From assembly GCA_021775575.1 (NCBI GenBank), contig JAJFHO010000109.1, positions 1 to 35,336 of the forward strand: a stretch of DNA of 35,336 nucleotides, written 5' to 3'. The stretch is from Hyphomicrobiales bacterium (GTDB taxonomy: Bacteria > Pseudomonadota > Alphaproteobacteria > Rhizobiales > Methyloligellaceae). The position numbers were made by a program, and so were the translations under genes. Positions 2,067 through 23,838 of the stretch are shown one piece after another (position 1 is the first letter of the stretch; the number at the start of each line of letters is the position of its first letter). The notes under the pieces were generated by a model. That model ran no database searches, had not been told where the DNA came from, and was given only the letters and a program-made list of their open reading frames with translations.

Positions 2067-3873
2067 TGCTGTCGGCCGGGATCAGCGGCGCGAACTCTTC
2101 CGGAGTGAGCGTTTCGCGCTCCAGCAGCAGTTTTGATCCCTTGTCGAGATCCCTGCGGCGCTTCTTCAGCACGGCGGTCGCGCGGGTAAAGGCTTCATCG
2201 ACCAGAGCGCGTATCGCCAGGTCGATCTCGCGCGCGGTTTCCTCCGAATATTCCTTCGTCTTCATGCCGAGCGCCGCCTCGCCCAGAAATGTCTGGCGCT
2301 GCGGCTCGTAAACCGACTGACCCAGCGCCTCGGTCATGCCGAAGCGGGTCACCATCTGCCGGGCGATCTCGGTCACCTTGTCGAGATCGTCCGCGGCGCC
2401 TGTCGAGATTTCGTTGAAGATCAGCTTTTCGGCGGCGCGCCCGCCCATCAGCACCGCCATCTTGTTCTTGAGGTCCCCGGTCGAGATCAGGAAGCGGTCC
2501 TCGGTCGGGCGTTGCAGCGTGTAGCCGAGTGCGCCGATACCACGCGGGATAATCGACACCTTGTGAACGGGGTCGGCGCCGGGCAGCGCCGAGGCGACCA
2601 GCGCGTGCCCCATCTCGTGATAGGCAACCGTTTTGCGCTCCTGCGGGTTGAGCACGCGCGAGCGTTTCTCGATGCCCGCGATCAGCCGCTCCACCGCCTT
2701 GGTGAAATCCTCCATGATCACATGCTCGCCGTCGCGCCGCGTGGCGAACAGCGCCGCCTCGTTGACCAGATTCTCGATATCGGCGCCGGTAAAACCCGGC
2801 GTTATCGCCGCCACCTGCTCCAGCTCGATGCCGGCGCCGGCCTTGATCTTCTTCATATGCACTTTGAGTATGGCCACGCGCCCTTCCTTGTCGGGGCGGT
2901 CGACGACCACCTGGCGGTCGAAGCGGCCCGCGCGCAACAGGGCCGGATCGAGAATCTCCGGACGGTTGGTGGCGGCGAGCAGCACGATACCCTCGCGCGG
3001 ATCGAAACCGTCCAGTTCCGACAGCAGCTGATTGAGGGTCTGTTCCTTTTCGTCATGGCCGCCAAGGCCGCCGCCCGCGCCGCGCGCGCGGCCAAGCGCG
3101 TCAAGCTCGTCGATAAAGATGATGCAGGGTTTGGCCTGGCGTGCCTGCTCGAACAGATCGCGCACCCGGGCAGCGCCTACGCCGACGAACATCTCGACGA
3201 ACTCGGAACCGGAAATCGAGAAGAAGGCGACACCGGCCTGCCCCGCGACCGCGCGCGCCAGCAGCGTCTTGCCGGTGCCCGGAGGCCCGACCAGCAGAAT
3301 GCCTTTCGGAATACGCGCGCCGAGCCGCCCATATTGTTCCGGATTCTTCAGGAAGTCGACAATCTCCTCCAGCTCGGCCTTGGCTTCGTCCACGCCGGCG
3401 ACATCGTCGAAAGTGACGCCGGTCTCCTTTTCCACATAAACCTTGGCCTTGGACTTGCCGACGCTCATAAGACCGCCGAGCCCCTGTTTCTCGGCCATCT
3501 TGCGGAAGACGAGCATCCACAGGCCGAAGAAGAACAGCACCGGCACGACCCAGGACAGCAAATCGCGCAGGAAGGTCTGCTCCGTTCCGCCGGTGAATTT
3601 GATGCCCTTGTCCGCCAGCTCCTTGGCGATATCGGGATCGACGCGCTGGGTGATGAAATAATTGCGCCCGCCGATCGGCGTCCTGAGTTTGCCCTGCAGA
3701 GTGGTTTCGCGGACGGTAACTTCCTCGATCTGGCCCTGGGCAAGCAGCTTCTCGAATTCCGAATAGGGAACCTGCTCGACCGAGCGCCAGTTCACCCACA
3801 GGCTCTGAAACAGAAAAACGAAACCGATGGTGATCGCGAGATACCAGAAGTTCAGCTGGTTCTTCTTTTCCAT
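2047..3873 (-). CDS. ftsH: FtsH-type ATP-dependent zinc metalloprotease, paralogue 1
   Basis: The 608-residue membrane-anchored AAA+ protease begins at [11 protein letters not shown]. The frame extends 18 codons further upstream, but the FtsH homology starts here. Two membrane segments (about residues 8-27 and 107-124) flank a small periplasmic domain. The AAA module has Walker A GPPGTGKT (about 196-203), Walker B IIFIDE (251-256) and the second region of homology with RAGRFDR. The peptidase domain has the zinc motif HEMGH (about 419-423). FtsH degrades damaged or unassembled membrane proteins and short-lived regulators. Compared with the second FtsH at 25124-27064 it has a different N-terminus (KKNQLNFWY type) and a shorter C-terminal tail. 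It stands alone next to purA instead of in the tilS-ftsH-glmM context, so it is the accessory paralogue. The ribosome-binding site is weak (AGGAATAT). Confidence 0.93.
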
Positions 3874-18346: not shown

Positions 18347-18538
18347 ATGGCCAAACCGAAAGTCATCGTCACTCGCCGGCTGCCTCGCGCTGTAGAGGAG
18401 TCCCTGAGCGAGGCGTTCGATGTCACTTTCAACAATGCCGACCGGGTACTGAATACGGTTGAGCTGAAAGAAACGATCATGACTGCCGACGCCGTTTTGC
18501 CGGTTGTTTTGTCCTCTAACCGCAAGAAAACCCCATGA
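18347..18538 (+). pseudogene. Truncated hydroxypyruvate reductase/D-glycerate dehydrogenase remnant
   Basis: A 63-codon frame starts MAKPKVIVTRRLPRAVEESL, a typical N-terminus of the D-isomer-specific 2-hydroxyacid dehydrogenase family (GyaR/HprA type). It continues recognisably to about residue 50 (TADAVLPVV). It then switches to an unrelated SSNRKKTP and stops. The NAD-binding domain and the catalytic Arg/Glu/His are absent. No continuation exists in other frames, because the next gene begins at 18535 inside its stop codon (ATGA). A deletion that removed about 250 codons explains this. The retained short frame may survive because its translation feeds ribosomes into the next gene. Hydroxypyruvate reductase is the usual partner of serine–glyoxylate aminotransferase in the serine cycle. 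Confidence 0.75.
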
Positions 18539-19770
18539 CCATATTCCCGCCGCTTATCATCCCTGAAACCCTCGCTGCTGGTCCTGGACCGGGCAATACA
18601 GACCCCCGCGTTCTCGCCGCCTTTGCCAACTCCGGCATTGCCGATCACATGCAAATCGACGTGTTGCGCGGCATGCAAGAGATTAAACTGATGCTCCGGG
18701 AGATGTTCGGCACGAAGAACATTCATACCTACGGCATCGCCGGAACGGGCTTCAGCGGTCTCGACTGCATGTTGAGCGCCATACAGCCAGGCGACAGTGT
18801 CGTCGCCTTCACCAACGGTACGTTCAGCGGTATCGACTGCCAGACAATCCGTATGAAGGCGTCCGCGCCGGACGATCTCGCCGCCAATCCGCTGCAGCCA
18901 AACCCCGAAAATGTCACCGTGATTGAGGTTCCGCATGGAACCTCCGTGACCGGCGAGATGGTTTACGCAGCCCTTGGTGAACACAAGCCGATGTGGGCGT
19001 TCATGGCCCATTGGGAAACCGGCAGCGGCCGTATCAACGACCTCCAGGGCTTTAATGGCGCCTGCGAAAAACACGGGGCCATGGGCCTCGTCGACGCGGT
19101 ATCTAGTCTCGGAATTGCGGACTTCAACGCCGATGATTATCCGGCAGTGGTCGGCTGGGCCTCCTGCCCCCAGAAAGGCGTTCTGGGCCTGCCGCTGACG
19201 TACGCGCCCGTGAGTTTTTCCGACGCCTATATCGAAACCGTCGCCAAGCGCGGCTGTTACACCTACGTTAACCACCCTATTTTGAGCGCACGCCACTGGG
19301 GCATCGTCGACGGCAAGGACGTTGATGTACCGGCCTACCACCAGACTCACTCCTGTTATGCGATCGCGTCGTTCCATGAGGCCTTGCGCATAAGCTTGAC
19401 CCATGGGCGAGCCGAAAAAGCCGCCGACTATGCATTCCATGAGGGCGTTCTGCGCGAGGCCGTGACCGCCATGGGATGCAAAGTGAGCTCGAACATGACC
19501 AGTCTGGTGGTTCTAAATTTGCCGGACGCGCTTTCCGGCCGTGAAAAGGAACTGGTTCAGGGGTGCCGTGCGGAAGGGTTCGCCATTTGGCCGACGCTGT
19601 CGGAGCCCGTTCAGGTTCGTATCGGTATTCTCAATCAGCTATCGGAAGAATCCATCAAAGATATCGTAAGCCGTTTTGCTGACGCGATGTTGAATATGGG
19701 CGCGAACGATGTGGACAAGGACGCTATACTGAAACAAGTAAAAGCGCGCTTCGCCGCCACAAAGGCCTGA
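18535..19770 (+). CDS. Class V PLP-dependent aminotransferase (AGT/serine–glyoxylate type)
   Basis: The 411-residue product resembles the alanine/serine–glyoxylate aminotransferase family. It has an AAGPGPGNTDPRVLAAF start, a GIAGTGFSGLDCML cofactor-phosphate segment, Asp187 in VDAVSSLG for the pyridine nitrogen, the presumed Schiff-base Lys214 (ASCPQKG), and the C-terminal VRIGIL with the carboxylate-binding Arg. It is atypical: the family's usual GSQK is SCPQK, and the N-terminal element reads IADHM. It is not close to methylotroph SgaA. In this operon the likely substrate is glyoxylate released by malyl-CoA lyase, giving glycine from an amino donor such as serine or alanine. That is inference. 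No good ribosome-binding site precedes it, which fits coupling to the overlapping truncated frame. Confidence 0.8.
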   Translation: MTIFPPLIIPETLAAGPGPGNTDPRVLAAFANSGIADHMQIDVLRGMQEIKLMLREMFGTKNIHTYGIAGTGFSGLDCMLSAIQPGDSVVAFTNGTFSGIDCQTIRMKASAPDDLAANPLQPNPENVTVIEVPHGTSVTGEMVYAALGEHKPMWAFMAHWETGSGRINDLQGFNGACEKHGAMGLVDAVSSLGIADFNADDYPAVVGWASCPQKGVLGLPLTYAPVSFSDAYIETVAKRGCYTYVNHPILSARHWGIVDGKDVDVPAYHQTHSCYAIASFHEALRISLTHGRAEKAADYAFHEGVLREAVTAMGCKVSSNMTSLVVLNLPDALSGREKELVQGCRAEGFAIWPTLSEPVQVRIGILNQLSEESIKDIVSRFADAMLNMGANDVDKDAILKQVKARFAATKA

Positions 19771-21369: not shown

Positions 21370-22221
21370 CTATTTGAATGGCGGCGTGTAAGTTGGCTGC
21401 GCATAGGCGGCCTGCTGACAGCAGGAGTCGTGCCCCCAATTCCAGCGCAGACCAACCATAATGTCGTGGGAGTCGATGTCTTCGACAGTCATCGGTCCAG
21501 GACTTGTAACGGCTGGGTTGAAGCTGGTGAATGTGCCCGTGACACCGTCGCCCATATTGACGTAGCGATAACCGACATCGAGCGTCAGATCCTGCGTTAC
21601 CTCATAGGCCAGTCCGGCGTGCAGCGCCCAGGCAAAATTCCACTCGCTGCCATCGCGCGCCCAATGGATCGCGCCGGCGATCTGGTTGATATCCTGGAAA
21701 TTGTCCAGATTGACGTTGGCGACGCCGATGCCGGCGCCGACATAAGGCGTAATGCCCCGGATTTCGCCGATGTCCCAATAAGCGTTGGCAAGGAACAGCC
21801 ATTCGGACTTGTGGCCCATATATTCGTTGGTGCACGTGCCTGTGCCGAGCCCGCATCCGGTGAAATAGTCGAGGCCCTTGAAATTCGACCTTGCGCGATA
21901 TTCACCGGTGGCGTCAAAGCGCAGCCAGTCATTATGCCGTATACCGACACCCAGGCCGACAAAAGGCGCACTGTCAAACTCGTGAGTGACAATCGTAAAC
22001 GCGCCGGGATTGCCGCTTATAATGTCGTTGTTGAAGCCCTCGGCTTGCTGGTTGCTGATTCCGAAGAACCCCTTCAGATACCAGTCTCCACCATAAACCG
22101 GAACCGGCACAGGCGCCGGAACCGCAATCGGCTCGGGAACCAGGTCAGCGGCATTCGCAGCGGCAAGGGGGCTTACAACAAGAGCCGACGCGAGGATCAT
22201 AGAAAATTTTATTTTTCCCAT
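21370..22221 (-). CDS. Outer-membrane beta-barrel protein (Omp25/RopB-like)
   Basis: The 283-residue product starts with a signal peptide (MGKIKFSMILASALVVSPLA, cleavage expected after ANA near 24). A short Pro/Val-rich linker follows (PEPIAVPAPVPVPVYGGDWYLKG as successive short units), then an eight-strand-type barrel. Barrel features include GDWYLKGFFGIS, ITPYVGAGIGVANVNLD, FAWALHAGLAYEVTQDLTLDVGYRY and HDIMVGLRWNWG. This is the layout of alphaproteobacterial Omp25/Omp31/RopB-like surface proteins. It ends not in Phe but in a short extension (PPFK) after two Cys. Two further Cys lie in a loop (TGCGLGTGTC). ATG 22221 has AAGGTGA before it. The AT-rich upstream region has three CtrA-type boxes, so cell-cycle control is plausible. 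Confidence 0.85.
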   Translation of the reverse strand: MGKIKFSMILASALVVSPLAAANAADLVPEPIAVPAPVPVPVYGGDWYLKGFFGISNQQAEGFNNDIISGNPGAFTIVTHEFDSAPFVGLGVGIRHNDWLRFDATGEYRARSNFKGLDYFTGCGLGTGTCTNEYMGHKSEWLFLANAYWDIGEIRGITPYVGAGIGVANVNLDNFQDINQIAGAIHWARDGSEWNFAWALHAGLAYEVTQDLTLDVGYRYVNMGDGVTGTFTSFNPAVTSPGPMTVEDIDSHDIMVGLRWNWGHDSCCQQAAYAQPTYTPPFK

Positions 22222-22314
22222 CTCAGTCACCTTTTCACTCAGGTCGAACACACGCGCCACGACCGGGCCCGATTCCTTCGAACTGTTTCATTTCGGGACT
22301 ATGGGATGATTTAT

Positions 22315-22406
22315 TTAATGTAAGATTAACCGTATCTATAAAGATGAATTAATTACTTATTAAATATTGTTAACAACAAGATAACGTCTAATTAAAAATA
22401 GATTAA
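22315..22406. promoter_or_regulatory. Array of CtrA-type boxes upstream of the OMP gene
   Basis: Three perfect matches to the CtrA consensus TTAA-N7-TTAA lie at 22315-22329, 22349-22363 and 22392-22406. A fourth near-match (TTAA-N7-ATAA) lies at 22370-22384. The block is strongly AT-rich against a GC-rich genome. It is about 95-185 bases upstream of the OMP start and just beyond the 3' end of glmM. CtrA is the master cell-cycle response regulator of many Alphaproteobacteria. Site identity comes from the consensus only. Confidence 0.6.
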
Positions 22407-22491
22407 CAGGAAAATATAGAGCAAAAAAGACTGATGGGCCGCAAGGAATACCCTGCGCCGGAAAGTGATAAAAATCCGCAGTATCAGATAA

Positions 22492-23838
22492 TCAGGCCGC
22501 TACGCTTCGCAAGACAGTGACGATGTCCTTGACGACGGTCCCGACGAGCTTCGCATCGTCGCCTTCCGCCATGACCCGGATTACCGATTCTGTGCCGGAC
22601 GGGCGGATCACAAGCCGGCCTTGCTTGCCGAGCTTGTCCTTGCTGTTGCTGATGACCTGCCGGACCGTCTCGTCGTCAAGCGGCTGGCCCTGCTTGTACC
22701 GGACATTTTTCAACACTTGCGGAAGCGGGTTGAATCGGTTGCAGATTTCACTCACCGGTTTGCCGCTCTGCACCACCACCGAGAGAATCTGCAGCGCGGC
22801 GACCAGCCCGTCGCCGGTGGTGGCGAAATCCGAAAGCACGATATGGCCGGATTGCTCGCCGCCGACATTGTAGCCGTGCTGGCGCATATACTCGACGACA
22901 TAGCGGTCGCCGACTGGCGTGCGGGCAAGCTTCAGGCCCAGCCCCTCCAGATAGCGTTCAAATCCCAGATTGGACATAACGGTCGCGACGACACCGCCTC
23001 CCGACAGCCGGCCCCGCTGCAGCCATGATTCGGCGACGACGGCCATCAGCTGGTCGCCGTCGATAACCTGCCCGGTTTCATCGGTGATCAAGACGCGGTC
23101 GGCATCGCCGTCGAGCGCAATACCGATGTCCGCACGCATCTCGCGGACTTTCTCACAGAGTATTTTGGGCGCGGTGGAGCCGCAATCCTTGTTGATATTG
23201 AAGCCATTGGGCTCAACGCCGAGCGTGATTACTTCCGCTCCCAGTTCCCACAGCGCCGCGGGCGCAACCTGATAGGCGGCGCCGTTGGCGCAATCGACAA
23301 CCACGCGCAGACCGTCGAAGCGGATATTGCGCGGCAAGGTGCGTTTGGCGAATTCGATATAGCGCTCCTGGGCGCTGTCGATCCGTTTGGCCCTGCCAAT
23401 ATCCGCCGGCGGCGCCAGCAACGGGGCTAAATCGCCATCGATCAGGGCCTCGATCTCAAGCTCTTTCTGGTCCGACAGCTTGTAGCCGTCAGGCCCGAAC
23501 AGCTTGATGCCATTGTCTTCATAGGGGTTGTGGGAGGCGGAAATCATAACGCCGAGATCGGCGCGGAGAGAACGCGTCAGCATCGCGACCGCCGGCGTCG
23601 GCATTGGCCCAAGCTGGAAGACATCCATGCCGGCGGCGGTGAAACCCGTCACAAGCGCCGACTCGATCATATATCCCGACAGCCGGGTATCCTTGCCGAT
23701 CACGACGCGGTGACGGTGGTCGCCATTGACGAAAATCTTGCCGGCGGCCATGCCGACCTTCATGGCGATTTCCGACGTCATGGGGCTGGAATTGGCCAGC
23801 CCTCGAATACCGTCCGTGCCGAAATACTTCCGCGACAT
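22492..23838 (-). CDS. glmM: Phosphoglucosamine mutase
   Basis: GlmM converts glucosamine-6-phosphate to glucosamine-1-phosphate for UDP-GlcNAc, hence peptidoglycan and LPS. The 448-residue product is full length. It starts [16 protein letters not shown], has the phosphoserine loop [17 protein letters not shown] with Ser102, the Mg2+ loop DGDADR (243-248), the sugar-specificity motif GGEQSGHI, and the phosphate-binding RPSGTES near the C-terminus. It follows ftsH and folP on the same strand, the order common in proteobacteria. A 109-base gap separates it from folP, so it may have its own promoter. Confidence 0.97.

Follow-up and report, generated by a model that had tools for sequence, protein, structure and literature searches.

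A conserved CtrA-type box before an outer-membrane barrel gene of a Hyphomicrobiales bacterium: a probable CtrA-activated promoter with two additional upstream boxes

The window, i.e. the whole stretch of 35,336 bases that was analysed, carries a gene for a predicted outer-membrane barrel protein (OMP), which is read leftwards from its ATG at 22221. The neighbouring glmM gene ends at 22492, and the 270 bases that separate the two genes hold a cluster of TTAA-N7-TTAA boxes located 94-185 bases upstream of the OMP start codon, as the preliminary description had placed them before an OMP gene. Past glmM, the folP, ftsH and tilS genes were recognized by Pfam, and the further genes past tilS, which were read from translations alone, are presumably a CpoB-like gene, pal, tolB, tolA and tolQ. 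A 411-aa ORF on the plus strand (18535-19770) had no Pfam match and may be no gene. The features of the locus are given below.

21370-22221, minus strand: outer membrane beta-barrel gene, 283 aa, PF13505 (Pfam and predicted structure)
22144-22149, minus strand: Ala25-Asp26 codons, presumed mature N-terminus and candidate peptidoglycan attachment site (alignment)
22222-22291, minus strand: predicted 5' leader of ~70 bases, with the transcription start inferred from the -10 position
22298-22303, minus strand: -10-like hexamer CATAGT, within the block CATAGTCCC-N3-ATGAAACAG (profile of 103 promoters)
22315-22329, minus strand: box 1, TTAATCTTACATTAA on the coding strand (exact match; same position in relatives)
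22338-22352, no strand assigned: one-mismatch box with a half-site in common with box 2 (motif scan)
22349-22363, minus strand: box 2, perfect, 34 bases from box 1, start to start
22370-22384, no strand assigned: one-mismatch box, the near-match of the preliminary description (motif scan)
22381-22395, no strand assigned: one-mismatch box with a half-site in common with box 3 (motif scan)
22392-22406, minus strand: box 3, perfect, starting 43 bases from box 2 and 77 from box 1
22492-23838, minus strand: glmM (phosphoglucosamine mutase), conserved upstream neighbour (four PGM_PMM domains; synteny)

The OMP protein was assigned to PF13505 with a score of 46.1 bits (cut-off 28.7). Its predicted model reached a mean pLDDT of 80.8, and its strands number eight when 75-82 and 85-95 are taken together as a single strand. 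The structure matches of the model included the OmpA, OmpW and NspA barrels, at query-normalised TM-scores of only 0.39-0.49, and a sequence search of the PDB with the protein matched no chain. The residues A24, A25 and D26 were invariant in 21 aligned OMP proteins (that of the window and 20 picked from 84 matches), and a looser Ala-Asp-type pattern was present in 96 of 113 OMP N-termini; the signal cleavage site was judged by eye. This invariance fits the alanyl-aspartyl N-terminal motif of peptidoglycan-attached Hyphomicrobiales OMPs. Hence, the OMP of the window may be attached to peptidoglycan via Ala-Asp by LD-transpeptidases.

The only exact matches to TTAA-N7-TTAA in the window start at 22315, 22349 and 22392, the very positions that had been claimed, when 0.03 matches were expected. 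When boxes with at most one mismatch were counted, 10 were found in the window (2.18 expected), and six of them were located inside 22315-22406. The start of the near-match, 22370, is 21 bases away from that of box 2 and 22 from that of box 3, i.e. about two helical turns from its neighbours as described earlier. The half-sites TTAA or ATAA start at 22315, 22326, 22338, 22349, 22360, 22370, 22381, 22392 and 22403, so that the nine step by 11, 12, 11, 11, 10, 11, 11 and 11 bases.

The earlier judgement that three boxes so close together were unlikely by chance held in the shuffling controls. At least three perfect boxes occurred in none of 100 dinucleotide shuffles of the window. The AT-rich tract 22310-22432 is 80% AT, and the GC content of the window is 57-64%; three boxes were found in none of 5000 dinucleotide shuffles of this tract, which was picked once the boxes were known, its shuffles being descriptive controls. 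Seven TTAA occurred in 54 of the 5000 tract shuffles, none of which had the seven in a single 10.5- or 11-base phase, and among the 254 shuffles with at least six TTAA there was none with all of them in phase. The 4.06-Mb assembly as a whole contained 29 perfect boxes, compared with 40 for a reversed control pattern, and this was counted against a CtrA reading. Thus, the three boxes within 92 bases are a real cluster, though the motif shows no genome-wide enrichment. Since the reversed control was commoner than the motif, the motif by itself is weak evidence, and the argument is carried by position and conservation.

The conservation of the boxes was followed in related bacteria. The OMP was sought in 60 relatives and matched in 49, the best 29 of which were examined at the locus and the 20 weaker left out. 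A box with at most one mismatch was located at -88 to -117 from the OMP start, as picked by script, in 27 of these 29. It was perfect in 15 of the 27 and had one mismatch, mostly TTAG in the first half-site, in the other 12. The two relatives where the box was not found were L038, with only 79 upstream bases, and L048, with an uncertain start.

Further, glmM loci from a named genome collection were inspected; 585 were confirmed, and the best 80 of them were used. An OMP was matched in 58 of these 80 loci (84 matches), and no OMP match was obtained in the remaining 22 within the 3 kb, or less in some, searched downstream. A perfect box was present within 200 bases of at least one OMP start in 53 of the 58 glmM-OMP loci and absent from five; many of these loci come from Rhizobium and Microvirga relatives and are hence not independent. 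The best 80 glmM loci span 551,636 bases and contain 76 perfect boxes, 70 of which were located within 200 bases before OMP starts; the control region of 200 bases before position 3001 (the usual glmM start) had a perfect box in one of 79 loci. The preference for the spacing was investigated in 113 OMP upstream regions: TTAA-N7-TTAA was found in 83, and the N6, N8, N9 and N2 variants in 1, 0, 37 and 14, respectively. AATT-N7-AATT was found in none of the 113, and shuffles of these regions gave on average 0.57 regions with a box and three at most.

A class-wide sample was also examined, where 71 other genomes matched the OMP and 29 loci were inspected. A perfect box was found in both loci from the same order and in one of 27 weak barrel matches from other orders, where start codons were often uncertain. 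Surface-level searches of one open-access library turned up no description of a box shared across the order ahead of these OMP genes. It was also observed that genus g2 has two OMP genes about 17-19 kb apart (G001:C45, G006:C16, G009:C192, G011:C63, G013:C12 and G015:C27); in G001, the OMP adjoining glmM was 35% identical to the protein of the window and the other copy 52%.

The promoter geometry was derived from the same family. A box was located at -160 to -45 in 106 of 114 upstream regions, and 103 distinct ones were anchored on it for a profile; 82 of these 103 rows remain once similar promoters are removed. Counted from the box start, positions +26 to +31 of the anchored promoters form a conserved -10-like hexamer, whose position 2 is A in 85% and position 6 T in 81%. 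The full block CATAGTCCC-N3-ATGAAACAG was present in 10 of the 103 rows, namely in the window and nine others. As the window carries this block, box 1 rather than box 2 or 3 aligns with the ancestral box, and box 1 is accordingly taken as that box on the alignment. If the -10-like hexamer is the -10 element, a -35 hexamer set the usual 17 bases before it would fall within the box, and box 1 would lie at about -38 to -24 relative to the inferred transcription start.

A generic sigma-70 scan listed no promoter on the OMP strand, and this was counted against a CtrA reading. Several other explanations of the tract were tried and rejected. An ordinary sigma-70 promoter gave two matches at the tract, both on the plus strand, when 0.9 were expected; no terminator was found by the scan; and the cluster does not serve as a glmM promoter, since glmM ends at 22492 and reads toward the boxes, which are therefore downstream of it. 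A single GANTC site, which we take to be the CcrM methylation motif, is located at 22271 within the presumed OMP leader.

Additional half-sites were observed among the anchored promoters. In 29 of the 103, e.g. L073, L086 and L116, the box is preceded at 13 bases by a third half-site, often ggTTAA, which gives an N9 spacing. In six promoters from different genomes (L047, L053, L054, L060, L064 and L079), a second box with no more than one mismatch precedes the main box at a distance of exactly 43 bases, and a TTAA often stands between the two at -19 or -13. The window has neither an exact -13 half-site nor a -43 second box relative to box 1.

Among the family relatives that were examined (the best 29 of 49), boxes 2 and 3 were without a perfect counterpart, and this was counted against a CtrA reading. 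The conservation before related OMPs, which had been proposed as a check, was observed in 27 of 29 relatives and 53 of 58 loci, and only box 1 had clear counterparts. In L039 and L049, a box with one mismatch precedes the main box by 83-84 bases. Among the 113 OMP upstream regions (200-230 bases, with the window included and G166 left out), three perfect boxes were found in one, that of the window, two in four, one in 80 and none in 28.

Triple perfect boxes with gaps of 4-34 bases were recorded in four of 397 genomes of the order; a reversed control of the pattern gave one genome, G110, among the matches listed. Apart from the genome of the window, these include G166, where four boxes are located between glmM and an OMP_b-brl gene. 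The triple boxes of G079 (L155, G079:C45:81865-81937) are placed between hemE and maf, and those of G115 between a glutamine synthetase gene and a Tad-type gene. Two of the four triple clusters are at the glmM-OMP pair, which suggests that extra boxes were recruited there repeatedly, four being a small number. From the comparison of the upstream regions, boxes 2 and 3 appear as a rare local elaboration.

The genome assembly (281 contigs, 98.75% complete, 4.45% contamination) was searched for the regulator and its partners. The gene for CtrA, which the preliminary description had left to be looked for, was present: its product scored 423.5 bits against NCBIfam NF045991 (cut-off 350) and, over 228 residues, shared 89% identity with the typed Caulobacter query. 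SciP and CpdR are also encoded, both over the NCBIfam cut-offs, and a ChpT-type phosphotransferase and SciP share a contig with CtrA.

Further, 26 of the 29 perfect boxes of the genome fall outside the window. The reading covered 27 box loci, some of which overlap at one place, and at least one neighbouring or containing ORF was scanned at each place. Among the genes near these other perfect boxes were cpdR, minC, flagellar genes, one for a class A PBP and a divergent bactofilin pair, along with two GH3 genes and a sigma-70 gene. The neighbours cpdR, minC, flagellar, class A PBP and bactofilin belong to typical CtrA classes, and this was counted for the CtrA reading. Other boxes adjoin atypical CtrA targets (genes for a YebC-type regulator, an argininosuccinate synthase and an aminotransferase), which was counted against the CtrA reading; some are inside ORFs such as mnmE, and several neighbour genes had no family. 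At L015 (G000:C56:5792) a perfect box is located between the two divergent bactofilin genes, and at L143 (G000:C222:23082) one separates cpdR from an N-formylglutamate amidohydrolase gene.

Several other explanations of the cluster were weighed. The preliminary description had also allowed for another CtrA-governed locus such as an origin, and the triple boxes between hemE and maf in G079 speak for it, as this neighbourhood is, we assume, origin-like in alphaproteobacteria. Here, the cluster is flanked by the OMP gene on one side and by glmM, folP and ftsH on the other, with the tol-pal genes further on, and hemE is on a separate contig (C57), where no box with at most one mismatch was found in the part of its surroundings that was inspected. 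The DnaA-box patterns tried gave no exact match in 22222-22491, and the GC skew, which had been proposed as a check, swings from -0.07 to +0.03 with no lasting switch. A replication origin at the cluster was therefore regarded as very improbable, and the suggestion was abandoned. Chance in AT-rich DNA draws on the composition of the tract and on the lack of genome-wide enrichment of the motif, and is opposed by the shuffles and by the conservation of box 1; it was rejected for box 1 on the window and tract shuffles and the conservation in relatives, and it is scarcely credible for the cluster.

It is possible, though rather doubtful, that box 1 alone works and that the AT-rich tract has another purpose, e.g. 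as an UP element, flexible DNA, or a MucR silencer platform with CtrA counter-silencing at box 1, boxes 2 and 3 being its by-products. The lack of perfect counterparts to boxes 2 and 3 among the family relatives that were examined, the 80% AT of the tract within a window of 57-64% GC and the MucR-family matches encoded in the genome agree with such a tract. However, none of the 5000 tract shuffles produced three boxes, the TTAAs are in phase, and second boxes occur in other genomes, six of them at exactly -43, with four boxes in G166. An OmpR-family regulator other than CtrA is an improbable reader of the boxes. The CtrA query had 37 matches in the genome, mostly in the receiver part only, OMP genes are often under OmpR-family regulators, and BvrR binds upstream of Brucella omp25 according to a passage of PMC10538546; but TTAA-N7-TTAAC is given as the CtrA ChIP-seq consensus in a stalked budding alphaproteobacterium in the cited part of PMC7200025, and further perfect boxes of this genome precede cpdR, minC and flagellar genes.

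Based on all the evidence, the best explanation, held with considerable confidence, is that the cluster marks a CtrA-activated promoter of an Omp25/RopB-like outer-membrane barrel, with box 1 at -35. Because most of the related bacteria that were examined share one of the boxes, this envelope gene is very probably under CtrA control. The earlier suggestion of cell-cycle control of a surface protein thus gained support from the CtrA gene and from the box conserved before related OMPs. It was proposed that CtrA~P would occupy box 1, which would span the -35 position, and would recruit RNA polymerase to the CATAGT -10 element, so that production of the barrel would come in a burst timed by the cell cycle, probably when cells divide. 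With its presumed Ala-Asp start, the mature OMP may be tied to peptidoglycan by LD-transpeptidases, and a barrel tethered in this way would link the anchoring of the outer membrane with division.

Boxes 2 and 3, together with the phased degenerate half-sites, would probably load more CtrA, and the promoter would probably change in threshold, level or timing as a result, in the way described for the upstream sites of Caulobacter pilA. By this analogy, the role of boxes 2 and 3 may be like that of the pilA upstream sites; added activation or cooperative loading are the alternatives. A bolder proposal, which is tentative and rather unlikely, is that the nine TTAA-like half-sites with a mean spacing of 11 form one continuous CtrA platform, where cooperative monomers would sit on one helix face and the OMP promoter would fire as a sharp late switch. 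On this proposal, the tether between the outer membrane and peptidoglycan would serve throughout the order as a division component timed by CtrA, and individual lineages would retune it through additional boxes.

Apparently, a known kind of regulator acts at an old target, with a promoter that is unusually elaborate in this lineage. If this is right, CtrA control of an outer-membrane barrel would be an old feature of the order rather than a peculiarity of Brucella; the barrel would possibly be a peptidoglycan tether, and its control would be marked by a very regularly placed site. The multi-box promoters of the window and of G166 would be natural variants for studying extra CtrA sites.

PMC10538546 and PMC10787603, citing Francis et al. 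2017, place the omp25 promoter of Brucella abortus in the CtrA regulon. In the passages concerned, a CtrA-bound region is reported at -389 to -337 (PMC10538546), and CtrA is said to govern envelope genes of Brucella, with select OMPs dropping on CtrA loss (PMC10787603). As at omp25, CtrA would be implicated here in the abundance and placement of an outer-membrane barrel. Unlike the region bound in omp25, the conserved box of the window adjoins the -10-like element and is accompanied by two perfect boxes upstream; as the Brucella region is far upstream, the promoter layout may differ, and this was counted against a CtrA reading. The N-terminal alanyl-aspartyl motif is described as attaching Hyphomicrobiales OMPs to peptidoglycan (PMC12729407, in the part cited). 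The OMP of the window shares with the tethered Omp25 and AopB (PMC12729407 and PMC11527210, cited parts) the Ala-Asp at the presumed mature N-terminus and a predicted beta-barrel; the two are tethered, and the OMP of the window is likened to them from sequence and predicted structure.

According to PMC7200025, the CtrA motifs of other species are very similar. For pilA of Caulobacter crescentus, the cited part of PMC11264516 reports that the CtrA site at -35 drives expression, and that the upstream CtrA sites lower and delay expression and raise the sensitivity to the CtrA level. The window resembles pilA in having upstream sites in addition to a CtrA-type site, which in the window is at the predicted -35 position; in pilA, 31 bases separate the -35 site from the nearest site upstream. 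As described there, the pilA sites are all off consensus and sites 2 and 3 have a 6-base spacing, when the window has three perfect 7-base-spaced boxes with half-sites running between them, and its target is a barrel OMP. The single-site CtrA promoters with a box at -35 that are described in the same source have the geometry predicted for box 1 and its -10-like element, to which the window adds two more perfect boxes upstream.
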